Positions 6,104-41,365 of a stretch of 48,114 nucleotides of DNA are shown here, in pieces (the stretch's first letter is position 1; each line of letters begins with the position of its first letter). This DNA comes from Bacteroidaceae bacterium (GTDB lineage: Bacteria; Bacteroidota; Bacteroidia; Bacteroidales; Bacteroidaceae): assembly GCA_024401275.1 (NCBI GenBank), contig JAKSLJ010000026.1:1-48114 (forward strand). Reading direction: 5' to 3'. The notes under the pieces were generated by a model, which saw only the letters and a list, made by a program, of their open reading frames with translations, was not told the DNA's origin and did no database searches. Position numbers and translations under genes: made by a program.

Positions 6104-6356
6104 AGCTCCCCCTTGGTCGGACGAAAACTTTCCCTTGGTCGGACAAAACTTTCCCTTGGTCGGACAAAACTTTCCCTTGGTCGGACGACTCATTTTCTTA
6201 TAAGAAAAAATATTTTTTCTAGTAAGAAAATGGGTCGTTTTCTTATAAGAAATTTTTCGTTTTCTTATAAGAAATGAAACTGCGCCCCTTGGCGAAACGA
6301 ATCGCGCCCCTTGGCGAAACGAATCGTGAGCCTTGGAGAAGTAAGTATTTAGCCTT
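6104..6356. repeat. Composite dispersed repeat, copy A (CCTTGG units plus TTTTCTTATAAGAAAA palindromes)
   Basis: Four tandem units of about 22 bases share CCCTTGGTCGGACGA/AAAACTTT (6111-6188). Then come four AT palindromes: TTTTCTTATAAGAAAA at 6193-6208, TTTCTAGTAAGAAA near 6215-6229, and TTTTCTTATAAGAAA at 6238-6252 and 6260-6274. After these, two units CGCCCCTTGGCGAAACGAAT and two more CCTTGG units follow. The same order of parts recurs at 20751-21010 and 33974-34190. No open frame here looks coding. Confidence 0.75.
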
Positions 6357-20750: not shown

Positions 20751-21010
20751 GGGCTGCAATGGCACATTCACCGTTGCAGCCCTTGGTGTATTTGTCACAA
20801 TTTCTAGGAAACGCTTTGAAATCCTTGGAGAAACGACCTGAAATCCTTAGGAAAACACTTCAAAATCCTTGGTCGGACGACAGGTTTTCTTTAAGAAAAA
20901 GTTTTGTTTTTAAAAAGAAAATGCTACTTCCCCCAAAGGGATACGAAAAAGCAATCCTAAGGGAGACGAAAAAACACCCTTGGGGAGACGGAAAGCAATC
21001 CTAAGGGATA
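20751..21010. repeat. Composite dispersed repeat, copy B
   Basis: Begins with the hairpin GGGCTGCAA/TTGCAGCCC (20751-20782), followed by CCTTGGTGTATTTGT. Then come several units around AATCCTTGG or AATCCTTAGG with GAAACG, the unit CCTTGGTCGGACGA, two AT palindrome-like units (TTTTCTTTAAGAAAAA and TTTTTAAAAAGAAAA), and four units of AAAGCAATCCTAAGGGAGACG type. The order of parts matches copy A and copy C. No gene is evident between 20646 and 21136. Confidence 0.75.
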
Positions 21011-21136: not shown

Positions 21137-24100
21137 TCACTTAACCATCACCTTTTTGCCATTCTTGATGATGATGCCGCGGAAGTTCTTGTCAACGCGG
21201 ATGCCCGATGTGCTGTACATCTTGCCGTCAACGCTTTCGGTAGTTACTTCGTCGATGGCAGAAGGAGCAGTAGTTGTCACAGTGAACTGACCGTAGCTCA
21301 TTGCATTGCCAGCCTCGTCAGCAACTGAGATGCAGATATCGTAATCAGTTCCCTTTGTGAGACCGTCGATGGTGTATGAAGTAGAGTTGCCTGTGTTGCG
21401 AGTGTTCCAAACAGACTCGCTTGCCTTCTTGTATTCCACTGTGTAAACGAGATCGCCCTGAGGAGTGCGGTCGTCGGTTGCAGGGCTCCAAGTCAATGCG
21501 ATGCTCTTCTCTGTCACCTCGTCCACACTGATTGTTACTTCACCCAATGAAGGAGCAGTCACGTCAGGGAGAGCCTTTGTAGTGACGGTTTCCTTTGTAT
21601 AGGCAGCGCCATTGCTTGCCTCGTCATAAACAACCACGTAGAAGTCGTATGATGTTTCTGGCTCAAGGTTATCTATCGTGCAGCTTGTCATGTCGTTTCC
21701 GCTGGCTACAGCATTATACACATTAAGCTGCAAACTTGACTCCGGATCAGAAGATTTCTTGTATCCGGCAATGTAATAAAGCTTGTCCTGCGCTGTGCGG
21801 TCGTCGCTTGCCTTAGCCCATGATATTGATACGCTGTTGTCTGTAACATCTGTGACGTTGATGGCGCTGTTAGAGAGAGTTGGAGCTTTCTTGTCAGACT
21901 CTGGAAGAGTCTTGAACGAAGTCTCCTTATAGAAAGTAAAGTTACGGTCCTTATCTGCTACGCGAACTATTGCATAATATTCTGTATTAGGCTGCAAGTT
22001 ATAGAGTTTGCATGAAGTGAGGTTTCTGCCGCTTGTATAGCCAGTGTAGTCAGTGTCGCCGTATCTTCTCATTGTGTAGAGCGTGTAATCGAGGTCTGAC
22101 TGTGGAGTGTTGTCGTCAGTTGCTGGTATCCATGAGAGCAGAGCACCTTCCTCTGTAACACCTTCCACCTCGATTTCATCGTTTACAAGCACCGGAACTC
22201 TGATAATCTCTGTGCTGATAACTACATCGTCCTTTGCCACGCCGCCCGATGCATTCAAGAAAGTCTTGCTTGCCGCAGCGTACTTGTGGTCGGAAGTGAT
22301 ATGGCAGTCTGTCATTGAGAGAGCACTAATGCCAGAGACAGTAGCGTTCTTGCCGTCGCCCTTTACCTTAAGCGTAGAGCCATAGACAGAAAGCTGGTGG
22401 CTGTTCAGAATCAAACCGGAAGTATTGCCTTTGCTTGTAGCATCAATCTCTACGGTACATTCGTTCTTGATAGTGAGGTCGCAATTGCCGTAGAAGTATC
22501 CGTTTTGTATTTTCAGCTGAGCGTTTTCGCCATTGTTGTCATCAGCCTTGATAGTAACCTTGCTGCTTGAAGCGGCATTGATATTACCAGAGATAGTGGT
22601 CCAACCAACGAGGTTGATGGTGATGTCGTCATTGATTTCGAGGGTATTGCTTGTGCTATACAAATCAGCCCAATTGAGATGGAGAGTCTTTGTCGTCGGG
22701 TCGTACTTGATAGTTCCACCATCACCCCAGAAGTCATTGGCGTTAGCTGAAGTTACCTGTGTGCCTTCGATGAAGAGAGGGTACTTAGTTACAGTCACAG
22801 GCTTAGCCGTTGTAGTTGCCTGAACGGTGTTGTACTTGCTTATGTTGCCAGCTTCGTCTTCCACGCGAACCTCGAATGTGTATTTTGTTGAAGGTTTGAG
22901 GTCGCCAACGATGTAGGAAGTTTCGTTCTTCATCTTCTTGCACAATACGCCATCACGATAGACAGAGTATTGCAGGTTCTCCTGCTTGGTAACGTTGTCT
23001 GTAGCCTTGTTCCAATTGAGAGTCACGCTGCCGTAAGTCGCGCCAGTTGCAGTAACCGTCTTGTTTGAAATTGTTGGCGCAGTCCTGTCCTGAGTGTTAG
23101 ATGTTGTGTAGGTGAGGATGTCGTAAGTGGCACGATTGCCCGCTCCGTCCTTTACACGCACATAGAATTCGTATGTCGTGTTTGGTTTGAGACTGGAAAT
23201 GTGACTTGAACTTATGTTCTTTCCTTGCTCTGCACCGTCTCTTGAATAGCGGCCACTTGATGGCTCTTTATACATAACCGTATAATCCAAGTCCTCATCG
23301 GCAAACAGATTGTCCTTGGCCTTTGTCCAGCTGAGCGTAAGAGAGTTGTCCGTGGCATTTGACACAGAGAGCTTCTTGTTTGACAGGGTTGGAGCCTCCT
23401 CGTCGTTCTCGTAGCCCTTTGGCATCGTTTTTACGCGGCCAGTCTCGTAATGAGAAACATTCTTGTCCTTATCATATACATCGACACGGAATTCGCACCA
23501 TGTGTTTGGACGCAGCAAATAAACTGTCGTTGACATTCCGCCATTGCTTTCCGTAATTTCATTGTAATCAGCATAATCATATTCCTGATGAAGACCTTCA
23601 AAATAGTGATAGCCCAGGCGATAAGAAAGGTCCTGTTGGCGTGTCTCGTCGTCAATTGCCTTGTTCCAGGAAATCTCAACCGAGTTATCAGTGATGTTCT
23701 TGAAGACAAGATAAGGGTCAGGGATGGTCGGAGCATTGAAAGAAGACGCAGGCAACTTGTACCTTACCTGATCGTATCTGGCTGTGTTTTTCGACTCATC
23801 CTGTACTTCTACAATGAAGTCATACGTGCCAGGCTCCAGATCCAGGAACTTCTCATACATCCGTTGCTTCTTGTAATTGAAGTTGTCTCTGTCCACAGCT
23901 TTCTGGTAATAAGTGTCCATGCTCAATTTTTTGTAATAGACAACGTATGACAAATCTGAGGATTTGGAAATATTGTCCTTGGCATCCTCCCATTCCAAGG
24001 TCACGAGACAGCCTTGACCTTTATAGTCCCAATCGGGCAAGGTTCTTTCGAACAAAACATCTACCTTCCTGTTCGGGATTGTCGGAGACTCGTTGTCTGC

Positions 24101-24484
24101 TAAGGTCTTTGTGTAAAGAGTCTCATAATATGTGGTATTAATGGAATAATCATACACAAAGAGCGTAATCTCGTATTCCGTATTCGGCTGAAGGGAGGTG
24201 AAAGTATATGATGATATTCCCCTCAATCCATCAACATTTCTGTAGAAAGCATCTTTTCCGGAAGTTGCCCTGTACTTTATTGCATAGAACAGTTTGTTTT
24301 GTTCTACCTCGTTGTCCGTAGCCATATTCCATGAGATGCTGATGGAAGTTAAATCGGTCTTGTCCACGGTAATCTTCTTGTTGCTTACCGTAGGCGGTTC
24401 TGTATCAGCTGCCCATGCCGTCGCAGTAGCCAGCATGGTCAGCAACAGTGCAACGAATGTTCTTAATGACAATAACCTTTTCAT
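21137..24484 (-). CDS. Fibronectin type III repeat surface protein, paralogue 1
   Basis: A 1115-residue protein with a signal peptide (residues about 1-25, TATAWA-ADTEPP). Five fibronectin-III-like modules follow (about 26-560), each opening with PT-x-S/P-N-x-x and carrying S-x-S-W-x-K/P-A-T/S-D and PNT-x-Y-E-x-x-V. The central region (about 565-760) is beta-rich with no FN3 motif (YPLFIEGTQVTSANANDF, then LTIKNECTVEIDATSKG); it resembles a carbohydrate-binding or right-handed-helix fold. Three more FN3-like modules follow (about 765-1078). The last about 35 residues (MYSTSGIRV...IIIKNGKKVMVK) look like a type IX secretion tail. Probably surface-anchored adhesin or glycan binding. Parts of the gene are identical by eye at DNA level to the paralogue at 29712. 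Confidence 0.85.
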   Translation of the reverse strand: MKRLLSLRTFVALLLTMLATATAWAADTEPPTVSNKKITVDKTDLTSISISWNMATDNEVEQNKLFYAIKYRATSGKDAFYRNVDGLRGISSYTFTSLQPNTEYEITLFVYDYSINTTYYETLYTKTLADNESPTIPNRKVDVLFERTLPDWDYKGQGCLVTLEWEDAKDNISKSSDLSYVVYYKKLSMDTYYQKAVDRDNFNYKKQRMYEKFLDLEPGTYDFIVEVQDESKNTARYDQVRYKLPASSFNAPTIPDPYLVFKNITDNSVEISWNKAIDDETRQQDLSYRLGYHYFEGLHQEYDYADYNEITESNGGMSTTVYLLRPNTWCEFRVDVYDKDKNVSHYETGRVKTMPKGYENDEEAPTLSNKKLSVSNATDNSLTLSWTKAKDNLFADEDLDYTVMYKEPSSGRYSRDGAEQGKNISSSHISSLKPNTTYEFYVRVKDGAGNRATYDILTYTTSNTQDRTAPTISNKTVTATGATYGSVTLNWNKATDNVTKQENLQYSVYRDGVLCKKMKNETSYIVGDLKPSTKYTFEVRVEDEAGNISKYNTVQATTTAKPVTVTKYPLFIEGTQVTSANANDFWGDGGTIKYDPTTKTLHLNWADLYSTSNTLEINDDITINLVGWTTISGNINAASSSKVTIKADDNNGENAQLKIQNGYFYGNCDLTIKNECTVEIDATSKGNTSGLILNSHQLSVYGSTLKVKGDGKNATVSGISALSMTDCHITSDHKYAAASKTFLNASGGVAKDDVVISTEIIRVPVLVNDEIEVEGVTEEGALLSWIPATDDNTPQSDLDYTLYTMRRYGDTDYTGYTSGRNLTSCKLYNLQPNTEYYAIVRVADKDRNFTFYKETSFKTLPESDKKAPTLSNSAINVTDVTDNSVSISWAKASDDRTAQDKLYYIAGYKKSSDPESSLQLNVYNAVASGNDMTSCTIDNLEPETSYDFYVVVYDEASNGAAYTKETVTTKALPDVTAPSLGEVTISVDEVTEKSIALTWSPATDDRTPQGDLVYTVEYKKASESVWNTRNTGNSTSYTIDGLTKGTDYDICISVADEAGNAMSYGQFTVTTTAPSAIDEVTTESVDGKMYSTSGIRVDKNFRGIIIKNGKKVMVK

Positions 24485-24529
24485 GTATTCTTGTTTTTGA
24501 TTTAACCTTACAACCTCGCAACCTTATTC

Positions 24530-25885
24530 CTATTTGAGTTTGGTGCGTCCGTAACCGCTCATGCCGTACTTGCCGTCCAGGTATATTACGGTCAAGCCAC
24601 GGTAGGCAGCTTGCTGCATCATGATGCCGTGGCAGAGCCAACGCTGTCCCTTGGCATCCTTGTATGTCCAACCTACATCGACAGCACGATGAGTGATGAA
24701 ACCATTGCGGGTGAGTGTGCGCCAACCGTCGCTGAGGTAGCATATCTGGGCATTCTTGTGCTCTGGGTCTTCGCGTGCCACCACCTGTTTAGCCATGTTC
24801 TGTATCTCGGCACTAACCTTGTAGGTTTTTGGCATGTCTATTGGGTCGGTGCTGTTTTCGATGACCGCGTTCTGCGCCTTCTGCATCTTCACGCGTGCCT
24901 CTTTATACATGGTCTCGAACTCGGCAGCTCGCTCGTCGCTCTTCCATCCCTCATGCTTCTGTAGGAAGTAGTCGAAGGAGGTGACAAACTCGCGATAGTT
25001 GGTCAGGGCAGCGTCCATATTGCCAGCCTCATACTGCTTCTCAGCCTGGGTGTAGCTGCCGTAAGTGCCACGGAAGACAATGTCGTAGTCGGACTTCATC
25101 GCCACATCAAGCATGATGTTCATAAGCTTGTTGTTGCGCTTCAGTCGTTCTTCCTCAGGCTCGAAGAGCACGTTCTTCTGACCATCCTTTGTGACGGTGG
25201 TCTGCGAGCCGGCATCCAGTGTGAGGCGGAAACGTCCCAGGAACTGCTGGTGGGCAAGGATGTATGCCTTGATCATCTGGCGGTAGGCTATGTACGAGTT
25301 AGGGTCGGCAAGATATTCTGCAAAGAAGGCATTGATGACAATCTCGCTGTAAGGTACGCTCTTACCCGTGTTGCCGATGCCAATCAATCCGTTATGTTCA
25401 AGTCCGTTGAGCTTGGCGTACGACTCGTCCATCATCTTGCGGCACTGCGTAGTGGTGTAATAGATGAAGTCCTCTACCTTCTGCGTTCCGTCGAGATAGA
25501 GTCCCGCATCACTATACTTGTAGTATGGCTGATAAGGGAATAGGTCCTTGTCAAGATGCTCGTAAGCGCCACGTATCTGTGCAGGCGACTTGGTGTAGTT
25601 CTTTCTGACAGTGTTGTCGGATGCCATTGGGTCGGCTTTTATCGCCTCCTTGCTTGGCTTATAGCTGCCAAATGGGTTGAACTTCATAGTCTGCTCGGAA
25701 GGGAAGGTGCTCAGTTCGCCTTCAGAACCAGGCGTTACAGCCTCCTTTGCCTTCTGGACTACTTTTGTCTCTGCCGCCTTTCCAACGGCTTTTTTCAGCA
25801 GATTGTTCACTTGAGCCTGTCCCGCCAATGGTGCCATGCTCATAATACTCAAGGCAACGATGCCACGCACGATAATCTTTTTCAT
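24530..25885 (-). CDS. Secreted protein of unknown function between fibronectin genes
   Basis: A 451-residue protein with a signal peptide (residues about 1-24, LAGQA-Q). After a Lys/Ala-rich helix (NNLLKKAVGKAAETKVVQKAKEA) comes a mainly helical body (KYSDAGLYLDGTQKVEDFIYY; RQMIKAYILAHQQFLGRFRL). The C-terminal part has a WRTLTRNGFITHRAVDVGW segment and ends YGRTKLK. It is not a fibronectin module and has no sorting tail. The family is not recognised; proteins with a similar start are common in Bacteroidales. It lies 45 bases upstream of paralogue 1 on the same strand and downstream of paralogue 2, so joint expression with paralogue 1 is likely. Confidence 0.65.
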   Translation of the reverse strand: MKKIIVRGIVALSIMSMAPLAGQAQVNNLLKKAVGKAAETKVVQKAKEAVTPGSEGELSTFPSEQTMKFNPFGSYKPSKEAIKADPMASDNTVRKNYTKSPAQIRGAYEHLDKDLFPYQPYYKYSDAGLYLDGTQKVEDFIYYTTTQCRKMMDESYAKLNGLEHNGLIGIGNTGKSVPYSEIVINAFFAEYLADPNSYIAYRQMIKAYILAHQQFLGRFRLTLDAGSQTTVTKDGQKNVLFEPEEERLKRNNKLMNIMLDVAMKSDYDIVFRGTYGSYTQAEKQYEAGNMDAALTNYREFVTSFDYFLQKHEGWKSDERAAEFETMYKEARVKMQKAQNAVIENSTDPIDMPKTYKVSAEIQNMAKQVVAREDPEHKNAQICYLSDGWRTLTRNGFITHRAVDVGWTYKDAKGQRWLCHGIMMQQAAYRGLTVIYLDGKYGMSGYGRTKLK

Positions 25886-25931
25886 AGGTTTATGTCTTAT
25901 TTATTGAGTAATAGGAGGAAAGAGATTATTT

Positions 25932-25966
25932 GGCTGCAACGGCGAATGTGCTGTTGCAGCCCTTGG
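25932..25966. repeat. GGCTGCAAC hairpin (lone copy of the composite repeat's left end)
   Basis: GGCTGCAAC (25932-25940) pairs with GTTGCAGCC (25953-25961) and is followed by CTTGG, as in copies B and C. The rest of the composite element is absent. It lies just downstream of the stop of paralogue 2 (minus strand) and may act as its terminator. Confidence 0.6.
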
Positions 25967-25995
25967 TGTATTTGTTTGATTTTGTCAATTTTTCC

Positions 25996-28900
25996 TTACT
26001 TAACCATCACCTTTTTGCCATTCTTTATGATGATGCCGCGGAAGTTCTTGTCAACGCGGATGCCCGATGTGCTGTACATCTTGCCGTCAACGCTTTCGAC
26101 AGTTACTTCGTCGATGGCAGAAGGAGCAGTAGTTGTCAAAGTGAACTGACCGTAGCTTATTGCATTGCCAGCCTCGTCAGCCACCTTGATGCTTACCTCG
26201 TAGTCAGTATCTTCGGTGAGTCCGTCGATGGTGTGGATGTTAGTGTTGCCGGCATTGCGGGTGATCCATGCCGATTCGCCAGCCTTTCGGTATTCTACGT
26301 AGTAAACGAGCTTGTCCTGAGGCGTGCGGTCGTCGGTAGCAAGGTTCCATGACAGAGTGATGCTGGTTCGTGTCAAATCGTCCACGCTGATTGTTATTTC
26401 ACCCAATGAAGGAGCCGTAATGTCAGGGAGAGCCTTTGTGACGACGGTTTTCTTTGTGTAAGTAGTACCATTGCTTGCCTCGTCATACACAACAACGTAG
26501 AAGTCGTATGATGTTTCTGGCTCCAGATTATCTATCGTGCAACTTGTCATGTTGTTGCCGTAGCCGACAGCATCAAGAGTAACAGAGGACTTTGACACAA
26601 ACCTCTTGATTGATGAGCCGCCCTGTTCCTGTTCCCCACTGTATCCGGCTGTGTAATACAGACTGTCCTGCGCTGTGCTGTCGTCGCTCGCCTTATCCCA
26701 AGATATTGATACGCTGTTGTCTGTCACATCTGTGACGTTGATAGCGCTGTTTGAGAGAGTTGGAGCAGTCTTGTCTGACTCAGGGAGAGTCGTGAACGAA
26801 GTCTCCTTATAGAAAGTCAAGTGACCTTCCTTGTCTTCTACGCGGACCATTGCATAGTATTCTGTGTTAGGCTTCAGGTTGTAGAGCTTGCACGAAGTGA
26901 AGTTTTTGCCGTCCTTGTAGAAAGAATAGTCTGTGTCGCCATATCTTCTCATTGTGTAAAGAGTGTAAACAAGTTCTGACTGCGGAGTGCTATCGTCAGT
27001 TGCTTCCACCCATGAGAGCAGAGCGCCGTCCTCTGTCACGCCTTCCACATATATTTCATCATTTACAAGCACCGGAACTTTGATAATCTCTGTACTGATA
27101 ACGATTTCGTCCCTTGCAACTATAGGTGATGGAGTTTTTGTCATGAAAGTCTGGTTTGACTGATCATACTTATGGTCGGAAGTGATTCGGCAGTCAGTCA
27201 TTGAGAGAGCACTAATGCCAGTGACAGTAGCATCCTGGCCATTACCCTTCACCTTAAGTGTTGAGCCATAAATAGAAAGCTTGTGGCTATTCATTGCCAA
27301 GCCTACGCTTGTTGCATCAATCTCTACGGTACATTCGTTCCTGATTGCGAGGTCGCAATTGCAGTAGAACCATCCTTGTATTTTCAGCTGAGCGTTTTCG
27401 CCATATTTGCTATCAGCCTTGATAGTAACCTTGCTGTTTGAATTTGCATTGATATTACCAGAGATTGTGGTCCAACCAACGAGGTTGATGGTGATGTCGT
27501 CATTGATTACGAGGGCATTGCTTGTGCTATACAAATCAGCCCAATTGAGATGGAGCGTCTTTGTTGTCGGGTCGTACTTGATAGTGCCACCATCCTCCCA
27601 GAAGTCATTGGCGTTAGCAGAAGTTACCTGTGTGCCTTCGATGAAGAGAGGGTACTTAGTTACAGTCACAGGCTTAGCCGTTGTAGTTGCCTGAACGGTG
27701 TTGTATCTGCTTATGTTGCCAGCTTCGTCTTCCACGCGAACCTCGAATGTATATCTTGTTGAAGGCTTGAGGTCGCCCACTATGCAAGAAGTCTCGTCCT
27801 TCACCTTCTGGCACAATACGCCGTCACGATAGACAGAGTATTGCAGATTCTCCTGCTTGGTAACGTTGTCCGTCGCCTTGTTCCATGAGAGAGACACGCT
27901 GCCGTAAGTCGTGCCAGTTGCGGTAACCGTCTTGTTCGAAATGGTTGGTGCTGTCCTGTCTTGGGCGTTGGATGTAGTGTGGGTGACGATGTCGTAAGTG
28001 GAAGTGTTGCCCATTCTGTCCTTTACACGCACACGGAATTCGTATGTCGTGTTTGGTTGGAGACTGGAAATGTGACTTGAACTTATGTTTTTTCCTTGTT
28101 CCGCACCGTCTTTAGAATAGCGGCCGCTTGATGGCTCTTTATACATAACCGTATAATCCAAGTCCTCATCGTCAAACAGATTATCCTTTGCCTTTGTCCA
28201 GTTGAGCGTAAGAGAGTTGTCTGAGGCATTGGTTATTGTGAGCTTCTTGTTTGACAGAGTTGGAGCCTCCTTGTCGTTCTCGTAGCCCAAAGGCATAGTT
28301 TTCACACTTGCTATTTCGTAAGTTGATATGTTCTTGTCATCGTCAAAAGCATCGACACGGATTTCATACCATGTGTTTGGCTTAGTGAAATAAGCTTTGG
28401 TTGACGTCATATCCATGCCCAAAGGAGACCCCAAGTTTGCATACATATCAAAAAAAGGTAGATCTGATTCTTTCAGTCGGGTGCCAACTCTGTACCAAAG
28501 GTTTGACTGACTGGTCTCTTTATCAATAGCTCTATTCCATGAAAGATCTGCCGATTTGTGAGTTATGTTACTTCTTCTTATGTTTGGATCAGGAATAGTT
28601 GGAGGATTGGCTGATGATGACTCGGGAACAGTTATTCTTGCTGGGTCATATTTTGTTGTATTTCCAGCTGCATCTTGAGCTTCTACCAAGAAATCATAGG
28701 TGTTTGGCTTTAGATCATATATATATGCAAGCCAAGATTTTGAATCATTATTAGTTATCGTTTTTGCATTTTGGTATTTCACGTTTGCTAACTTGTAATA
28801 GTTGCTTTCACTTGCTTTCTTATAGTAAAAATTGTAGATAAGATCCGCAGTGCAATTGTCAGAGGCTGGCAAATAATATAACGTTATTTGACTGGTGTGT

Positions 28901-29358
28901 TCTCTGTCATTTGTCCAATTTTGCACGAGTTTTTCGTAAAAAACAGAAACCTTCTTGTTTTCTACTGTCGGAGCTTTTGTGTCCGCTTTAGTGGTAACTG
29001 TTAAGGCAGCATACTTTAAGACGTTACGAGAAATGTCTTTTGCGGTAATGTTAATTTCGTATGTTGTGTTCGGTCTTAATCCTGTAAATTCTGTGGAACT
29101 GGTACAATAGCGAACAATATGGGTACTTTTATAGCCATTATCATTTGTTATAACTATTGTATATTCCACATCTTCTTTTGAAGTAGTGTTGTCTGTAGCC
29201 AAGTTCCATTTGACCGAAATAGAATTATCAGTAACATTTTTTAGGAATACTCTCTTGTCACCGACTGTAGGTGGTTCCGTGTCAGCCGCCCACGCAGTCA
29301 GATTTGCCAACGTAGTCAGCAACAGAGCAACGAATGTTCTTAACAATTTTGTTTTCAT
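25996..29358 (-). CDS. Fibronectin type III repeat surface protein, paralogue 2
   Basis: A 1120-residue protein with signal peptide (LTAWA-AD), five FN3-like modules, a central beta-rich domain at about 569-759, three more FN3-like modules and the same type IX-like tail as paralogue 1. Its first three modules differ strongly from those of the other paralogues, while modules 4-8 and the centre are close. The signal-peptide DNA is identical by eye to that of paralogue 3, and the last about 110 bases are nearly identical to paralogue 1, so the gene is a mosaic. Expected at the cell surface; ligand unknown. Codon use in the first third is more AT-rich than in the rest (for example 28440-29260), suggesting that this part has a separate history. 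Confidence 0.85.
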   Translation of the reverse strand: MKTKLLRTFVALLLTTLANLTAWAADTEPPTVGDKRVFLKNVTDNSISVKWNLATDNTTSKEDVEYTIVITNDNGYKSTHIVRYCTSSTEFTGLRPNTTYEINITAKDISRNVLKYAALTVTTKADTKAPTVENKKVSVFYEKLVQNWTNDREHTSQITLYYLPASDNCTADLIYNFYYKKASESNYYKLANVKYQNAKTITNNDSKSWLAYIYDLKPNTYDFLVEAQDAAGNTTKYDPARITVPESSSANPPTIPDPNIRRSNITHKSADLSWNRAIDKETSQSNLWYRVGTRLKESDLPFFDMYANLGSPLGMDMTSTKAYFTKPNTWYEIRVDAFDDDKNISTYEIASVKTMPLGYENDKEAPTLSNKKLTITNASDNSLTLNWTKAKDNLFDDEDLDYTVMYKEPSSGRYSKDGAEQGKNISSSHISSLQPNTTYEFRVRVKDRMGNTSTYDIVTHTTSNAQDRTAPTISNKTVTATGTTYGSVSLSWNKATDNVTKQENLQYSVYRDGVLCQKVKDETSCIVGDLKPSTRYTFEVRVEDEAGNISRYNTVQATTTAKPVTVTKYPLFIEGTQVTSANANDFWEDGGTIKYDPTTKTLHLNWADLYSTSNALVINDDITINLVGWTTISGNINANSNSKVTIKADSKYGENAQLKIQGWFYCNCDLAIRNECTVEIDATSVGLAMNSHKLSIYGSTLKVKGNGQDATVTGISALSMTDCRITSDHKYDQSNQTFMTKTPSPIVARDEIVISTEIIKVPVLVNDEIYVEGVTEDGALLSWVEATDDSTPQSELVYTLYTMRRYGDTDYSFYKDGKNFTSCKLYNLKPNTEYYAMVRVEDKEGHLTFYKETSFTTLPESDKTAPTLSNSAINVTDVTDNSVSISWDKASDDSTAQDSLYYTAGYSGEQEQGGSSIKRFVSKSSVTLDAVGYGNNMTSCTIDNLEPETSYDFYVVVYDEASNGTTYTKKTVVTKALPDITAPSLGEITISVDDLTRTSITLSWNLATDDRTPQDKLVYYVEYRKAGESAWITRNAGNTNIHTIDGLTEDTDYEVSIKVADEAGNAISYGQFTLTTTAPSAIDEVTVESVDGKMYSTSGIRVDKNFRGIIIKNGKKVMVK

Positions 29359-29711
29359 AATTTCTTTGTTTTTTTATTTATTAAATCGTTTCTACTTGTA
29401 CATAAAATAATTAATAAATAATTCGTGGGCAATTTATGGTCATTCTTTCTACGAAAGCGCTACGCGATAACGTGTTCAAAAAATAAATATTGCTTGCGGC
29501 GCAACATAAATTTACCATTAATGACCCATAAATTTATTCATTAATTATTTTTTGGGGAGTGTATTTTTTTTGATTTTTAACGTGAATTGCCGTGAATTAA
29601 ACGTAAATTTTCGTAAATGCTTTTTCTACATGCTTACAGTATAAAGGTATTCATGAAAATTCACGTTTAATTTACGATAATCGCGTTTTAAATAAAACAT
29701 ATTTATTTCTA
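29359..29711. other. Intergenic region with inverted and spaced repeats, upstream of paralogue 2
   Basis: AAAATAATTAATAAATAA (from 29404) with GCAATTTATGGTCATT faces its near complement AATGACCCATAAATTTATT...ATTATTTT (29519-29551). From 29581 come CGTGAATT, CGTGAATT, CGTAAATT and CGTAAATG, spaced 10-13 bases. Inverted counterparts TTCACGTTTAATTTACG lie at 29660-29676. These look like clustered protein-binding sites or decayed palindromes. No gene and no standard promoter were found. Confidence 0.5.
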
Positions 29712-32700
29712 CTATTTATTAAAATACTTCTTGCCATTCTTAATGACAACACCACGGAAGTTTACGCTAACTCTTACACCCGATGTGCTGTACATCTTCT
29801 CGTCACCGCTTTCGGCAGTTACTTCGTCGATAGCAGAAGGAGCAGTAGTTGTCACAGTGAACTGACCGTAGCTCATTGCATTGCCAGCCTCGTCAGCAAC
29901 TGAGATGCAGATATCGTAATCAGTTCCCTTTGTGAGACCGTCGATGGTGTATGAAGTAGAGTTGCCTGTGTTGCGAGTGTTCCAAACAGACTCGCTTGCC
30001 TTCTTGTATTCCACTGTGTAAACGAGATCGCCCTGAGGAGTGCGGTCGTCGGTTGCAGGGCTCCAAGTCAATGCGATGCTCTTCTCTGTCACCTCGTCCA
30101 CACTGATTGTTACTTCACCCAATGAAGGAGCAGTCACGTCAGGGAGAGCCTTTGTAGTGACGGTTTTCTTTGTGTAAGTAGCACCATTGCTTTCTCCGTC
30201 ATACACAACAACGTAGAAATCGTATGAAGTTTCTGGTTCAAGATTCTCCGCTGTGCAACTTGTCATGTCGTATCCGTTGGCAATAGGATTGTGCACATCT
30301 TGTTCCCATCCCGATTCCGGTTCAGACGATTTCTTGTATCCGGCAAAATAGATCAGCTTATCCTGCGCTGTGCGGTCGTCGCTTGCCTTAGCCCATGATA
30401 TTGATACGCTGTTGTCTGTAACATCTGTGACGTTGATGGCGCTGTTAGAGAGAGTTGGAGCTTTCTTGTCAGACTCTGGAAGAGTCTTGAACGAAGTCTC
30501 CTTATAGAAAGTAAAGTTACGGTCCTTATCTGCTACGCGAACTATTGCATAATATTCTGTATTAGGCTGCAAGTTATAGAGTTTGCATGAAGTGAGGTTT
30601 CTGCCGCTTGTATAGCCAGTGTAGTCAGTGTCGCCGTATCTTCTCATTGTGTAGAGCGTGTAATCGAGGTCTGACTGTGGAGTGTTGTCGTCAGTTGCTG
30701 GTATCCATGAGAGCAGAGCACCTTCCTCTGTAACACCTTCCACCTCGATTTCATCGTTTACAAGCACCGGAACTCTGATAATCTCTGTGCTGATAACTAC
30801 ATCGTCCTTTGCCACGCCGCCCGATGCATTCAAGAAAGTCTTGCTTGCCGCAGCGTACTTGTGGTCGGAAGTGATATGGCAGTCTGTCATTGAGAGAGCA
30901 CTAATGCCAGAGACAGTAGCGTTCTTGCCGTCGCCCTTTACCTTAAGCGTAGAGCCATAGACAGAAAGCTGGTGGCTGTTCAGAATCAAACCGGAAGTAT
31001 TGCCTTTGCTTGTAGCATCAATCTCTACGGTACATTCGTTCTTGATAGTGAGGTCGCAATTGCCGTAGAAGTATCCGTTTTGTATTTTCAGCTGAGCGTT
31101 TTCGCCATTGTTGTCATCAGCCTTGATAGTAACCTTGCTGCTTGAAGCGGCATTGATATTACCAGAGATAGTGGTCCAACCAACGAGGTTGATGGTGATG
31201 TCGTCATTGATTTCGAGGGTATTGCTTGTGCTATACAAATCAGCCCAATTGAGATGGAGAGTCTTTGTCGTCGGGTCGTACTTGATAGTTCCACCATCAC
31301 CCCAGAAGTCATTGGCGTTAGCTGAAGTTACCTGTGTGCCTTCGATGAAGAGAGGGTACTTAGTTACAGTCACAGGCTTAGCCGTTGTAGTTGCCTGAAC
31401 GGTGTTGTACTTGCTTATGTTGCCAGCTTCGTCTTCCACGCGAACCTCGAATGTGTATTTTGTTGAAGGTTTGAGGTCGCCAACGATATAGGAAGTTTCG
31501 TTCTTCATCTTCTTGCACAATACGCCGTCGCGGAAAACAGAGTATTGCAGATTCTCCTGCTTGGTGACGTTGTCAGTTGCCTTGTTCCAATTGAGAGTCA
31601 CGCTGCCGTAAGTCGCGCCAGTTGCGGTAACGGTCTTGTTGGAAATTGTTGGTGCAGTTCTGTCCTGAGTGTTAGATGTTGTGTAGGTGAGGATGTCGTA
31701 AGTAGAAGTATTGCCCACACCATCCTTTACACGCACATAGAATTCGTATGTCGTGTTTGGTTGGAGACTGGAAATGTGACTTGAACTTATGTTCTTTCCT
31801 TGTTCCGCACCATCTTTAGAATAGCGACCACTTGATGCCTCTTTATACATAACCGTATAATCCAAGTCCTCATCGTCAAACAGATTATCCTTAGCCTTTG
31901 TCCAATTGAGCGTAAGAGAGTTGTCTGTAGCATTGGTTACAGTGAGCTTCTTGTTTGAAAGAGTTGGAGCTTCCTTGTCGTTTTCGTAGTCCGTTGGCAA
32001 AGTTTTAGCAAATGCAGATTCGTAATAAGTGATGTTCGCTTCTGTATCATATACGTCAACAAGGAATTCATACCAAGTGTTAGGCTTAAGACCACTAACC
32101 TTTGCATATGTCATATCTTTGACACCATGTAATACGCGAACAAATTTATCACCATCTTTTTGACGACAGAATACCCGATACTTTAGTTCTGACTGTTTTG
32201 TCATATCGTCAGTAGCTCTTTCCCATTTAAGCTCAACAGATTGGTCTGTTATGTTATATCGATATAAATATGGAGAAGGAAGAGTTGGTGCTGCAGATTC
32301 CGGTATTGTATATGTTAAAGGATTATACTCTGATTGGTTTCCTGCCGCATCGTAAACTACAACCTTAAATCCATGAGTTCCTGGCTGAAGATTTTCGAAA
32401 GTTCTGTTATATTGATCTTTATGACTATCTACATAATCATACATATAACCAAAAACCTGCTCGTATGTACTATGGCCTGGTTCTTTATGGTATAGGTGGT
32501 GATAAATATTAGTCTGTTTGTCTTCTGCCATTGCCCATGCTAATTTTAATCTAGCAGTAGAACTAGTATAGAGGTCGCCAGGAAAAAAAGTTAATGTAGC
32601 CTCAATATTTTTGTTTGGTATTCTTGGTGGTTCAGTATCGGCTTTTGGTTTTGCGTATAGAGTTTCATAATAGCTGTAATTCCCTGCTTTATCACGCACA

Positions 32701-33014
32701 GAAATTATTATTTCGCATCCCAAACTACTACCGTTATATTGAACTGTATAAGAATTTATGTCATTAAAGCTTCTTGTAAAGTAAAGCTTATCAGTAGGTG
32801 CTTTAAACTTAATTGTATAAAGTAAGTCCTTTTGTGGTGTCAAATTATCTGTTGCTTTATCCCACTTAATATTGATAGTTTTATAATCTGTTCCTGTCAC
32901 GGTAATCTTCTTGTTGCTAATCGTAGGTGGTTCCGTGTCAGCCGCCCACGCAGTCAGATTTGCCAACGTAGTCAGCAACAGAGCAACGAATGTTCTTAAC
33001 AATTTTGTTTTCAT
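29712..33014 (-). CDS. Fibronectin type III repeat surface protein, paralogue 3
   Basis: An 1100-residue protein with signal peptide (identical to paralogue 2), five FN3-like modules, a central beta-rich domain at about 548-748, three further modules and a tail (MYSTSGVRVSVNFRGVVIKNGKKYFNK). DNA of 30361-31487 shows no difference by eye from 21786-22912 of paralogue 1 (about 1.1 kb). A second block of about 330 bases near the 3' end matches as well. Between these blocks about 195 bases differ clearly (the loop segment of module 7). Modules 1-3 are unique and AT-rich. The pattern indicates recent gene conversion or unequal exchange within the family. Confidence 0.85.
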   Translation of the reverse strand: MKTKLLRTFVALLLTTLANLTAWAADTEPPTISNKKITVTGTDYKTINIKWDKATDNLTPQKDLLYTIKFKAPTDKLYFTRSFNDINSYTVQYNGSSLGCEIIISVRDKAGNYSYYETLYAKPKADTEPPRIPNKNIEATLTFFPGDLYTSSTARLKLAWAMAEDKQTNIYHHLYHKEPGHSTYEQVFGYMYDYVDSHKDQYNRTFENLQPGTHGFKVVVYDAAGNQSEYNPLTYTIPESAAPTLPSPYLYRYNITDQSVELKWERATDDMTKQSELKYRVFCRQKDGDKFVRVLHGVKDMTYAKVSGLKPNTWYEFLVDVYDTEANITYYESAFAKTLPTDYENDKEAPTLSNKKLTVTNATDNSLTLNWTKAKDNLFDDEDLDYTVMYKEASSGRYSKDGAEQGKNISSSHISSLQPNTTYEFYVRVKDGVGNTSTYDILTYTTSNTQDRTAPTISNKTVTATGATYGSVTLNWNKATDNVTKQENLQYSVFRDGVLCKKMKNETSYIVGDLKPSTKYTFEVRVEDEAGNISKYNTVQATTTAKPVTVTKYPLFIEGTQVTSANANDFWGDGGTIKYDPTTKTLHLNWADLYSTSNTLEINDDITINLVGWTTISGNINAASSSKVTIKADDNNGENAQLKIQNGYFYGNCDLTIKNECTVEIDATSKGNTSGLILNSHQLSVYGSTLKVKGDGKNATVSGISALSMTDCHITSDHKYAAASKTFLNASGGVAKDDVVISTEIIRVPVLVNDEIEVEGVTEEGALLSWIPATDDNTPQSDLDYTLYTMRRYGDTDYTGYTSGRNLTSCKLYNLQPNTEYYAIVRVADKDRNFTFYKETSFKTLPESDKKAPTLSNSAINVTDVTDNSVSISWAKASDDRTAQDKLIYFAGYKKSSEPESGWEQDVHNPIANGYDMTSCTAENLEPETSYDFYVVVYDGESNGATYTKKTVTTKALPDVTAPSLGEVTISVDEVTEKSIALTWSPATDDRTPQGDLVYTVEYKKASESVWNTRNTGNSTSYTIDGLTKGTDYDICISVADEAGNAMSYGQFTVTTTAPSAIDEVTAESGDEKMYSTSGVRVSVNFRGVVIKNGKKYFNK

Positions 33015-33245: not shown

Positions 33246-33590
33246 TTACTGTTTCTTTACTTGTTGAACTAATTCCTTAGTGTATGCATCTGTGACACTG
33301 GAGATTTCGCTCTTGTCATAGATTGTGAGTAGTGTAACTTCATAAGAATCAGGTTCGGCGACCTTAACGGCATAGGTGATGACACGTCCGCCTCCACTTT
33401 TTCCACTGCTTTTCGAACTTATAGCAATGCGTATTTTATAAACTCCACCGCCAAGGTCTGTACCATGTGTGGGTACTTGGCGAAGAGTTGTGACGAGTTG
33501 TTGTAAATCCGTCTTGAGAGATTTATATTTCTTAGCCAAACGTTTTGCTCTGCGATCGAACTCTGGTATTGTGTTTATGCAGACTTCCAT
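33246..33590 (-). CDS. RelE/HigB-like toxin of a type II toxin-antitoxin pair
   Basis: A 114-residue basic protein: IPEFDRRAKRLAKKYKSLKTDLQQL, then GVYKIRIAISSKSSGKSGGGRVITYAV, then LLTIYDKSE. This is the fold order of RelE/ParE superfamily toxins, especially the HigB-like members of Bacteroidetes, which have the R-V-I-Y strand and the LxxIYDKSE end. Members usually cleave mRNA at the ribosome. The gene begins 16 bases after the small antitoxin gene and is transcribed with it from the promoter at 33903-33933. A long helical N-terminus and a Ser/Gly/Lys-rich loop are visible. Exact biochemical activity cannot be told. Confidence 0.8.
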   Translation of the reverse strand: MEVCINTIPEFDRRAKRLAKKYKSLKTDLQQLVTTLRQVPTHGTDLGGGVYKIRIAISSKSSGKSGGGRVITYAVKVAEPDSYEVTLLTIYDKSEISSVTDAYTKELVQQVKKQ

Positions 33591-33973: not shown

Positions 33974-34190
33974 GGGCTGCAACGGTGAATGTGCTGTTGC
34001 AGCCCTTGGAGTATTTGTCCCAATTTCCAAGGGAAACGCTTTGAAATCCTTAGGCGGACGATCTGTTTTCTTATAAGAAAATGGAGATTTTCTAGTAAGA
34101 AAAAGTTTTGTTTCTAGTAAGAAAATGCTACTTCCCCCAGTGGGAGACTAAAAGCAATCCTTGAGCAATAAAAGCAATTCCAGGGCAAAC
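33974..34190. repeat. Composite dispersed repeat, copy C
   Basis: Hairpin GGGCTGCAAC/GTTGCAGCCC (33974-34005), CTTGGAGTATTTGTCCC, units with CCAAGGGAAACGCTTTGAAA and CCTTAGGCGGACGA, the palindrome TTTTCTTATAAGAAAA (34066-34081), two TTTCTAGTAAGAAA units, GCTACTTCCCCCAGTGGGAG, and three AAAGCAAT(C/T)CC units. The order of parts matches copy B closely. It fills the gap between the toxin-antitoxin promoter and the end of prmC, with no gene. Confidence 0.75.
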
Positions 34191-34238: not shown

Positions 34239-35231
34239 CTATAACCTAGTTGCCTTTATCATTCGCTGTTTTCCGAACTGGTCTTTGCGCAGTTGAATGT
34301 CGAAGAAACCTTTGTCGCTGAGAAGCTGAAGCATCTCTTCGGCACAAAGCGGATTTATCTCGAAGAAAAGCATGCCGCCAGGAGAAAGGTGGAGTAGGGC
34401 GAAATCGGCTATGGCGCGGTAGAAACGCAGAGGATCGCTGTCTGGAACAAACAGGGCAAGGCTCGGCTCATGGTCAAGGACGTGGGCAGACATTTCCGCC
34501 TGCTCTTTCTCCATGATGTAAGGAGGGTTGGAGACGATGATGTCGAATGCCCGACCCCCTCCGGCTCCCCCACAAGGGGAGGGTAGGATCCCGCAAGGGA
34601 AGATGGTGGCTGTTTGATCAACGGCAAAACCATTGGGAACGGTAGTGGCGAGAATGTCCTGCTTGATGAAGGTGATGTCTGCGCCGAGTTTTTCTGCATT
34701 GCTCTGAGCTATGGCGAGAGCTTTGTCGGAGATGTCAATGGCCGTGACGTTGAATCGCGGCTCGGAAGGTTTAGCTCGGCGGCGCGAAGCGGAAAGCCAA
34801 ATTCTCGCCCTACATTCTGGTGCGTTGAGTTCCTTGGCGAGGGTGATGGCTATGGCGCCGGAGCCTGTGCCGACGTCGAGCACTCTGCATTCAGCATTCA
34901 GCACTCTGCATTCTGCATTCAGCATTCTGCATTCAGCATTCAGCATTCTGCATTCTGCATTCAGCATTCTGCATTCAGCATTCAGCATTCTGCATTCCGC
35001 ATTCTGCATTCTGCATTCCTCTATGACCCATTGGCAGAGTTCCTCTGTCTCGGGGCGAGGAATAAGGACGCCGTTGCCGACGGAGAATGTTCTGCCGAAG
35101 AAGGTCTCTTCGCCAAGGACATACTGAACAGGTTCGCCTGCGGCAATGCGAGCGACGATTTCAGCGAAAGCATTAGCGGAAACGTGCTCATTCTCAAGAC
35201 TATCCGCACAAAGCAGGTCGGCAAAGCTCAT
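34239..35231 (-). CDS. prmC: Release factor glutamine methyltransferase PrmC (HemK) carrying repeat insertions
   Basis: PrmC methylates the GGQ glutamine of release factors RF1 and RF2 with S-adenosylmethionine. Visible parts: PVQYVLGEETFFGRTFSVGNG, LIPRPETEELCQWVIEE, the SAM motif VLDVGTGSGAIAITLAKEL, VTAIDIS and the catalytic IVSNPPYI. Three insertions are in frame. A 7-residue repeat (NAECRML type, seven copies) precedes VLDVGTG. A 21-residue arginine-rich segment follows LAKELNAPE. A Pro/Gly/Cys-rich stretch (TIFPCGILPSPCGGAGGGRA) precedes FDIIVSNPPY. The length is 330 residues from ATG 35231, against about 280 usually. The true N-terminus is uncertain: the open frame continues upstream (RQSHEAGEAQAIARLLADKVLH, a good PrmC start region), but no ATG, GTG or TTG is seen before a repeat run at 35313-35345. 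Third gene of a minus-strand group. Confidence 0.88.
   Translation of the reverse strand: MSFADLLCADSLENEHVSANAFAEIVARIAAGEPVQYVLGEETFFGRTFSVGNGVLIPRPETEELCQWVIEECRMQNAECRMLNAECRMLNAECRMLNAECRMLNAECRVLNAECRVLDVGTGSGAIAITLAKELNAPECRARIWLSASRRRAKPSEPRFNVTAIDISDKALAIAQSNAEKLGADITFIKQDILATTVPNGFAVDQTATIFPCGILPSPCGGAGGGRAFDIIVSNPPYIMEKEQAEMSAHVLDHEPSLALFVPDSDPLRFYRAIADFALLHLSPGGMLFFEINPLCAEEMLQLLSDKGFFDIQLRKDQFGKQRMIKATRL
34552..34603. repeat. C-rich hairpin repeat inside prmC
   Basis: The plus strand reads CGACCCCCTCCGGCTCCCCC, ACAAGGGGAGGG, then TAGGATCCCGCAAGGGAAG. It belongs to the C-rich family seen at 5561-5597, 19443-19640 and 46122-46287. It encodes about 17-20 residues that interrupt PrmC directly before the FDIIVSNPPY strand. 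Confidence 0.7.
34752..34814. repeat. Half TGTAGGGCGAG palindromic repeat inside prmC (63 bases, in frame)
   Basis: In reverse complement it starts TGTAGGGCGAGAATTTGGC and ends CCGAGCCGCGATTC, the same as the left 63 bases of the copy at 41262-41365, including the rare internal segment CCGCTTCGCGCCGCCGAGC. It is exactly 21 codons and leaves the PrmC frame intact. Confidence 0.8.
34880..35019. repeat. Array of 20 heptamers (GCATTCT/GCATTCA) inside prmC
   Basis: Twenty consecutive 7-base units, mostly GCATTCA or GCATTCT (variants GCACTCT twice, GCATTCC twice). Because three units make 21 bases, they encode a repeated seven-residue motif (NAECRML). Gain or loss of a number of units not divisible by three would shift the reading frame before the catalytic domain. 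Confidence 0.9.
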
Positions 35232-35312
35232 GTGGAGAACCTTGTCTGCAAGGAGTCGGGCGATGGCTTGCGCCTCACCGGCTTCGTGACTCTGACGGAG
35301 AGTGGATATGAG

Positions 35313-35345
35313 TAATTGGTAATTGATAATTGAAAACTGAAAAGT
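35313..35345. repeat. Heptamer-like AT-rich run at the start of prmC
   Basis: TAATTGG, TAATTGA, TAATTGA, AAACTGA, AAAGTGA can be read in succession. The run lies between the end of the PAP2 gene and the conserved first helices of PrmC, where a start codon is expected. A similar run is seen at 15077-15111. Confidence 0.55.
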
Positions 35346-35352
35346 GAAAAAC

Positions 35353-36306
35353 TTACCAGAGGCGGAGCTTCTTGTAGAGCGTGTTGAAAATGAAATAGAA
35401 TGAAGTGCCGACGAAGAGTCCTACGATGGCATCAATGGCGTAGTGTGCCTGGATATATACCGTGGCGATGCTCATAAGGATAAAGAACGGCAGAAGGATG
35501 AGCGAGAGTTTCCATTTCCTAGAGAAGAGAAGGAGAAGCTCCATTACAGCGCAGCAGCCGACATGACTGCTCGGGAAGGCTGCTGTAGGTCTTTCGCCCG
35601 CATGGTGAGCGCCTTCAACGAGATGATAGAAGAAACCATCCTTATCGCCAGGCATGGTAAGGCACGCCTGACTGTTCATGAAGTGGTCGCCGGCATCTGG
35701 GAAGAGTCCTTCGCGAATGCTGTCCAAGCCAGCATATTCGTAGTAGTAGATAGGTCCGGTTACCGGAATGAGGTCGAATATCACATAGAACGCGAAGAAC
35801 GCCGTAAGCAATACGAAGGAAGCACGAAGGAAGTCCTCTCGCTGCCAGAAGAGGTAGTAGATGAGAGTGACGGCGATGAACAGGTAGTAAGAGTAATAGC
35901 CCATGTGCAGAGGCTCCGACATCCAACTTGGAAGGATGGTGTGGAGCAGAAGAGCCGGCTGGCAACCGAAGATGTTTTGGTCGATGCCGGCAAACGTAGG
36001 GTCAAGATTCGGCAGAACCTTGTTCAACTCGTAAGTGTCTGGATACCACCACGAAAGCAGAGCTGCCTGCAGAAGTACGCGGAGGAAGAGCGTAAACTGG
36101 CATGGCAACCAATAGTGTACAAGCCAAAGTCCGCCCATCATGGCAAGAATCTGCATGCGTCCGCCGATGAGAGCCAGCGGATTTGTGTGCGTGGTATAGG
36201 TAAAGAAGATAAGGATAATGGTGAATGCCATGTAGGCAAGTACCACCCATTCTACTGCCAGAAGGGCACGCGACGATGATCTGTCAATCTTGAAAAGCTG
36301 CTTCAT
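35353..36306 (-). CDS. PAP2 superfamily membrane protein (inositol phosphoryltransferase-like)
   Basis: A 317-residue protein with about six to seven hydrophobic helices. Signature regions of PAP2 phosphatases are seen late in the protein: GERPTAAFPSSHVG (phosphatase motif 2, S-x-H) and YIQAHYAIDAIVG (motif 3, H-x-x-x-D). The arrangement resembles the Aur1/PAP2_3 branch, which in Bacteroidetes includes proteins implicated in transfer of phosphoinositol to lipids, as well as ordinary lipid phosphatases. Active site expected on the periplasmic face. The gene follows the DUF308 gene with a 6-base gap and ends about 10 bases before the heptamer run in front of prmC, so the three genes form one transcript. 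Confidence 0.8.
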   Translation of the reverse strand: MKQLFKIDRSSSRALLAVEWVVLAYMAFTIILIFFTYTTHTNPLALIGGRMQILAMMGGLWLVHYWLPCQFTLFLRVLLQAALLSWWYPDTYELNKVLPNLDPTFAGIDQNIFGCQPALLLHTILPSWMSEPLHMGYYSYYLFIAVTLIYYLFWQREDFLRASFVLLTAFFAFYVIFDLIPVTGPIYYYEYAGLDSIREGLFPDAGDHFMNSQACLTMPGDKDGFFYHLVEGAHHAGERPTAAFPSSHVGCCAVMELLLLFSRKWKLSLILLPFFILMSIATVYIQAHYAIDAIVGLFVGTSFYFIFNTLYKKLRLW

Positions 36307-41261: not shown

Positions 41262-41365
41262 TGTAGAGCGAGGATTTGGCTTTCCGCTTCGCGCCGCCGA
41301 GCTAAACCTTCCGAGCCGCGATTCAGGTTTATGCGGTGAAACGGCTCGGAAATCTTCGCCCTACA
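41262..41365. repeat. TGTAGGGCGAG palindromic repeat, copy 3 (long variant)
   Basis: Begins TGTAGAGCGAGGATTTGGC, contains the extra segment CCGCTTCGCGCCGCCGAGC, then CCGAGCCGCGATTC, and ends ACGGCTCGGAAATCTTCGCC then CTACA. It sits between convergent genes (aroB and the glycosyltransferase). The half copy in prmC is of this variant. Confidence 0.8.

Follow-up and report, generated by a model that had tools for sequence, protein, structure and literature searches.

In-frame short repeats in prmC and in other conserved genes of a Bacteroidaceae genome

The window analysed here, a stretch of 48,114 nucleotides, is contig C19 of a 71-contig assembly of 3.20 Mb that is 91% complete; the genus is presumably Prevotella. 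It encodes the release-factor methyltransferase PrmC in a reading frame that contains or adjoins repeats of several kinds, and upstream of it lies a PAP2-family gene. A RelE-like open reading frame (ORF; Pfam PF06296) was seen downstream of prmC at 33246-33590. The features of the locus, together with a second copy of one of the repeats, are as follows:

34239..35231, minus strand: prmC ORF from its first ATG, 330 aa, 216.3 bits against the TIGR03534 cut-off of 199.1
34239..35327, minus strand: prmC frame with the N-terminal residues homologous to congeners, from the alignment and the predicted first helices
34552..34603, no strand assigned: C-rich repeat in linker 2 before NPPY, found at 15 places in the genome including prmC, pLDDT 44-53
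34751..34814, no strand assigned: half of a dispersed palindrome with the end TGTAGGGCGAGAATTT, 64 bases, in frame in prmC
34880..35019, minus strand: GAATGCA-type heptamer array of 20 units in linker 1, between RPETEE and GTGSG, encoding ECRMLNA repeats
35309..35350, minus strand: fourth repeat, a degenerate heptamer array (TTTTCAC/TTTTCAG/TTTTCAA/TTATCAA/TTACCAA/TTACTCA) spanning the start region
35353..36306, minus strand: PAP2-family gene upstream of prmC (Pfam PF14378), its stop adjoining the 5' heptamer array
41262..41325, minus strand: second copy of the palindrome half in the window, part of a longer palindrome ending at about 41365

A preliminary description had recognised three repeat stretches in prmC, all in frame and all between conserved PrmC motifs. 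Their presence in frame was confirmed by TRF, which reports the heptamer array at 34880-35018 (period 7, 19.9 copies, 88% matches), and by the palindrome and C-rich matches, and their position between the motifs is borne out by alignment with congeners. The palindrome half, previously measured as exactly 63 bases (34752-34814), is instead a stretch of 64 bases matching its counterpart at 41262-41325 with 97% identity, and it corresponds to a block of 22 alignment columns absent from all 19 congeners. The C-rich query matches prmC at 34553-34603 and 14 other places in the genome. The fourth repeat sits between the upstream stop and the prmC start region; its TTWTCAN-type pattern gave three overlapping matches in the window and none in 100 shuffles, and two further arrays of this family were present among the loci of the same genome that were scanned. 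Linker 1 of the window protein comprises 54 residues and linker 2, including the palindrome block, 106, as against ranges of 14-77 and 50-95 in 107 congeners and of 16-27 and 57-64 in 22 genomes of the order; a linker 1 of at least 54 residues occurs in 2 of the 107 congeners, a linker 2 of at least 106 in none of them. The heptamer array of prmC is one-armed and folds barely better than its shuffles (z -1.34), and is therefore not itself the hairpin element described below. Shuffles also fold at least as well as the palindrome half and the C-rich stretch when each of these is taken alone (z 1.79 and 0.72, respectively).

The beginning of the gene is less regular than its core. PrmC homology continues upstream of the listed ATG, with the profile alignment reaching 35261, and a start at this ATG removes the first helices (H3-11 and H16-29), which are modelled in blocks of pLDDT 91-95. 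The frame is open over 393 codons, and upstream of 35231 it contains no in-frame ATG, GTG or TTG; the codons near the start position of the relatives are ATT/ATC. At the equivalent position, the nearest relative found (G096) does have a standard start, and in 105 of 107 congeners an ATG, GTG or TTG occurs 70-130 residues before the PET motif by a lenient test; the frames of the remaining two congeners are shorter in the available DNA. An N-terminal domain that is complete from a standard start codon, as expected of a TIGR03534 member, was thus not found in the window gene, which may use a non-standard start at ATT or ATC or be initiated at the internal ATG.

These irregularities raise the question, already posed in the preliminary description, of whether the insertions are tolerated or the gene is decaying, with insertions and the absent standard start codon as signs of weakened or lost function. 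Besides the start, the load of four repeats in one gene and a segment from PET to the end of 268 aa, which exceeds the maximum of 249 aa in the 107 congeners, would fit decay. Against it, PrmC retains 58 of the 59 residues that do not vary among 19 congeners, along with the GTGSG and NPPY motifs; codon positions differ from G096 by 0.32, 0.24 and 0.55; the frame is open throughout; and the gene scores above the PrmC cut-off, as does no other place in the genome. The search for a second intact prmC proposed earlier thus found none over the cut-off in the 91% complete assembly, where the next best place reaches 57.6 bits. The core gives decay no support, and the start codon keeps it in play; we regard decay as unlikely. 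The protein is probably made with the extra segments in place and is probably active, if perhaps weakly so, given that its start has no standard start codon.

Structure modelling, likewise proposed earlier, distinguishes the core from the inserts. The AlphaFold model, built from the window protein aligned with named relatives (55 rows), has a mean pLDDT of 85.4 and a pTM of 0.85, and in it 224 of 362 residues, a further point against decay, reach a pLDDT of at least 90. Ten-residue blocks outside the inserts mostly lie at 81-98. The heptamer segment of linker 1 is modelled as a helix (H92-125, H130-144) whose middle drops to 64-78, the palindrome segment lies at 63-64 and the C-rich segment at 44-53.

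The repeats of prmC recur elsewhere in the genome, with 58 heptamer matches, 21 palindrome matches and 15 C-rich places in all. The heptamer pattern (GCATTCN)2GCATTC has its 58 matches in the assembly against none for the reversed control. A chance origin of the repeats was rejected on this control and on the shuffles (0 of 100). The matches form 32 clusters, prmC and 31 others, and 27 of the 32 lie in frame in ORFs of at least 239 aa that stay open across them. The idea of prmC as the sole host was accordingly rejected, and the gene is not the exception that it had first seemed to be. Eighteen of the clusters are internal: four in MetH, two in GT9, and one each in RdgB, WbqC, a porin-like ORF, an acyl-ACP synthetase, ClpB, MurF, ABC-F, MnmE, a Sel1 protein, Lon, IleRS and PrmC. 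Four genic clusters lie near N-termini (Lgt, a SusD protein and two others), five lie in C-terminal tails, and the five between genes include three directly after a stop. Related elements are carried by YggS and an RluA-family protein. NCBIfam cut-offs are exceeded by MetH, Lon, ABC-F, MnmE, RdgB, MurF and Lgt, and Pfam assigns GT9, the acyl-ACP synthetase, WbqC, Sel1 and SusD; ClpB (1145 vs 1232.1) and a cut-off IleRS fragment (561.2 vs 621.4) stay below their NCBIfam cut-offs, and the porin-like ORF has no Pfam match. The labels "porin" and "secretion-tail" are our assumptions from the appearance of the sequences. In five secreted-looking proteins (C2:87666, C10:36676, C22:29607, C32:21158 and C56:41140), heptamer arrays were seen just before a C-terminal tail of the YNLAGQKV type.

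Comparison of MetH with its counterparts in G096, G145 and G030 indicates how such segments differ from site to site. Repeats 1 and 2 measure 64 residues each where all three relatives have 7 and 3, respectively. Repeat 3 has 66 residues against 29, 44 and 27, and repeat 4 has 31 against 44, 34 and 34; being no longer than its counterparts, the latter replaces variable sequence. MetH thus contains two clean insertions (sites 1 and 2), one partial insertion and one replacement, and at site 3 G145 has heptamer peptides of its own, REESGER and SPLSTLH. In ClpB, an insert of 48 residues takes the place of the 6 that lie between residues 508 and 515 of the Thermus protein; the alignments of RdgB, MurF and MnmE are looser at the repeats. 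Apart from its insert, the ClpB frame (G000:C12, L309:1801-4239) aligns only from Thermus residue 146 on, so that it seems to lack the N-terminal domain.

In other bacteria, repeats are an established means of phase variation. The gain or loss of a single 7-base unit would change the frame, and prmC could on this account be a contingency locus in which heptamer units switch PrmC on and off. The units are, however, imperfect (88% matches), arrays occur in the middle of MnmE, IleRS and MetH, and all 27 genic clusters are in frame, which makes such switching very improbable. Since seven is not a multiple of three, all three frames of a stop-free heptamer array yield one and the same heptapeptide repeat, and consequently only the total length of the array must fit the host frame.

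The other two families are distributed differently. According to the preliminary description, all three families otherwise occupy intergenic DNA and recur elsewhere in the window. The first part stands mainly for the palindrome, as 17 of its 21 genome matches (the query itself included) are not well inside an ORF and 4, prmC among them, lie in an ORF of at least 100 aa with 30 aa on either side; it fails for the heptamers, with 27 of 32 clusters genic, and for the C-rich repeat, with 6 of the 14 other places internal to identified genes. The second part held in these searches only for the palindrome, given that every (GCATTCN)2GCATTC match and every C-rich query match on the window contig lies in prmC. 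The C-rich hosts are a ClpA-like protein (below its cut-off), FolC, an amidohydrolase, NIF3, RNase R and an M20 deacylase; the remaining places are near the ends of frames or in no ORF of at least 90 aa. A Y1_Tnp gene on contig C45 (L395, about 14000; 27 bits vs cut-off 23) has a complete TGTAGGGCGAGGATTT palindrome on either side, with ends similar to those of the prmC palindrome; the 64-base stretch in prmC has no BLAST match beside this gene. Three side observations concern the window itself. AT-rich stem-loops of the TTTTCTTATAAGAAAA type are clustered at 6193-6274, 20881-20920 and 34063-34124. Three long regions within 21152-33014 have direct repeats of 300 bases in common, at 85-100% identity. 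On visual inspection, the ORF at 29712-33014 resembles fibronectin.

Many internal heptamer copies encode KMQNAECRMQN-DSPTNNNAQPN-SAFCILHSALN, i.e. a heptamer arm, a loop and an inverted arm. The underlying hairpin element is stop-free and consists of an arm of GAATGCA units, a loop encoding about DSPTNNNAQPN, and an inverted arm of TGCATTC units. All four complete hairpins that were folded proved far more stable than their shuffles (z -4.8 to -6.6); the fold of G096 covered the left arm only and so is no test of its hairpin. Among the fetched loci, one expression, which misses diverged loops such as those of MnmE, MurF and GT9, matched 11 loop copies, 10 in this genome (one of them atypical) and 1 in G096, and all 11 share one orientation and one phase with respect to their host genes. 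A search with the loop element (E 0.001) found it in 2 of 299 genomes of the genus, namely this one (25 matches, on both strands) and G096 (2 matches); given this narrow distribution, the loop copies and the linker arrays of PrmC need not share a mechanism. Judged by eye, both GT9 sites hold an insertion in the G096 orthologue as well, with a similar loop but with the heptamer TAATGCG in place of GAATGCA, which suggests that the two arms of the hairpin evolve in concert.

PrmC loci were assembled in three sets: the genus (150 genomes searched, 142 with a match, 109 loci fetched, 107 parsed), the order (29 loci fetched, 22 parsed) and named taxa (80 loci, of which 73 parsed, 16 from Prevotellaceae and 57 from others). 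The search of genome contigs with the window PrmC alone gave 0 relatives, and the alignment query gave the 80 loci. Among congeners, period 7 was found in linker 1 in 15 of 101 and in linker 2 in 21 of 106, as against 1/107 and 2/107 in two control segments; counted with the window, the linker figures are 17/102 and 23/107. At six other lags the linkers gave 0-7, and one control segment gave 11/107 at lag 10. Period 7 was absent from both linkers in the order set (0/22 each). Named Prevotellaceae have it in 2/15 (linker 1) and 6/16 (linker 2), with 2/16 in the N-side control, and named Bacteroidota other than Prevotella in 12/57 and 4/57, or 9/57 and 0/57 by a stricter measure. The arrays of linker 1 in the latter consist of different heptamers, e.g. 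CAAAAAT; the same segments thus did not turn up in distant genera, and what some other Bacteroidota have at the same linker is heptamer arrays of their own. As other species show the same kind of insertion, an assembly artefact is an unlikely source of the arrays. In linker 1 of L171, L018, L112, L202 and L206 from Prevotella, C-rich-looking or duplicated segments without heptamers were noted by eye, and the longest linker 1 seen, of 77 residues in L104, has no obvious repeat.

A different heptamer, of the GAGAG type, gave 215 matches in five congeners, with 101 in G034 and only 2 in G094; its reversed control is partly identical in sequence and provides no null. All 30 fetched loci of this type, which comprise 15 arrays including one in PrmC, fall within ORFs of at least 150 aa. 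Ten host ORFs were scanned, of which acetolactate synthase, RNase R, RsgA, RlmD and two MATE transporters pass their cut-offs, and two RsmF-like, one agmatine deiminase-like and one Dcp-like ORF remain below them.

The two linkers of PrmC differ in the strand composition of their arrays. In Prevotella, purine content separates the arrays of linker 1 from those of linker 2 without overlap (12 vs 12, p=3.6e-5, the species not being independent): heptamer-bearing linkers 1 are purine-rich in 10 of 12 (median 0.80) and the corresponding linkers 2 purine-poor (median 0.32), from baseline medians of 0.51 and 0.52. Outside Prevotella, linker 1 arrays have a purine content of 0.48-0.73 as against a median of 0.57 in the others, a weak enrichment. 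The split between the linkers suggests selection on the encoded peptide and thereby points to translation. It also bears on the idea that the inserts are removed from the mRNA or skipped by ribosomes, as introns or by translational bypassing; strongly folding hairpins in housekeeping genes could be read in this way, but the genic clusters keep the frame and are without stops, and together with the linker-specific composition this leaves removal or bypassing extremely improbable. Alternatively, the inserts may have been adopted for a function, e.g. as heptad-like helices or for translation pausing. The helix modelled for the linker 1 array and the common orientation and phase of the matched loops are in line with adoption; the modest pLDDT of the middle of that helix, the differences in the repeat between species and the many congeners with short linkers speak against it, and we consider it quite unlikely.

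Our preferred explanation, to which we assign a probability of about 0.7, is that short in-frame repeats burden the genome as a whole, with prmC as one of their hosts, and would be kept, like the palindromic elements of Rickettsia, wherever the encoded peptide is tolerated. As part of this explanation, linkers 1 and 2 of PrmC would be recurrent tolerant sites across Prevotella, each mostly accepting a repeat sense of its own. The main family would be a stop-free heptanucleotide array, often in the form of a hairpin. Arrays probably grow by slippage or template switching, hairpin copies may spread by copying, and the palindrome may owe its movement to a REP-associated Y1 transposase. Repeats are observed in linkers, loops, signal peptides and C-terminal tails, where selection would allow them to persist, and the proteins concerned seem to carry extra segments made of repeats that are apparently tolerated.

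A broader proposal is more tentative, and we put its chances at clearly below even. Stop-free heptanucleotide arrays could constitute a frame-agnostic class of coding elements throughout Bacteroidota, with each species having heptamers of its own that have spread into dozens of housekeeping genes in a genome. Insertions would stay at the same sites while their heptamer is replaced in concert on both arms, as GT9 may illustrate with GAATGCA here, TAATGCG in G096 and the loop kept; the site would select the sense of the repeat; and the arrays would be a continuous source of new protein segments.

Selfish-looking elements in frame in housekeeping proteins are best known from Rickettsia, and we found no report of such repeats in Prevotella in the openly licensed PMC literature. 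A genus outside Rickettsia with tens of insertions per genome that differ between species would make directly testable how essential enzymes absorb peptides, how heptamer repeats arise and spread, and whether new protein parts result. For annotation, the inserts matter in that they split or lower family matches and obscure starts.

Several known systems resemble these repeats in part. Phase-variable simple sequence repeats likewise have tandem units not divisible by three inside genes; here, the units are imperfect, the hosts are housekeeping genes and the genic copies are seen in frame. Dispersed tandem heptamers have been described from Xanthomonas and Nostoc, under-represented in coding regions, and TAACTGA repeats from Beggiatoaceae and some Bacteroidetes, mostly intergenic with some exceptions in ORFs and with a stop in the unit (PMC4692102, PMC4679880). 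The heptamers of our genome are dispersed and tandem as well, but the clusters examined lie mainly in coding sequence and lack stops. A similarity to REP elements with their REP-associated Y1 tyrosine transposases lies in the Y1_Tnp gene, beside which stand complete palindromes whose terminal bases (TGTAGGGCGAGGATTT) are nearly identical; the prmC copy differs in being half an element whose 64-base stretch has no BLAST match at that gene, and mobility here is putative. The resemblance to Rickettsia proposed in the preliminary description is supported by in-frame inserts in unrelated conserved genes. The palindromic elements of Rickettsia are short palindromes of several families that lie in frame in unrelated metabolic genes and each encode a conserved peptide (PMC10969869). 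Similarly, the heptamer elements lie in frame in unrelated conserved genes, with insertion relative to congeners evident at MetH sites 1 and 2, and the loop peptide occurs in one orientation and frame (11 of 11 matched copies, one atypical). Palindromic structure varies between copies, being present in the four complete elements folded (z -4.8 to -6.6) and not in the prmC array (z -1.34). Compared with that description of the Rickettsia elements, the host is a genus of Bacteroidota, the PrmC array has one arm, and the complete elements have tandem-heptamer arms that differ between two species around a similar loop.
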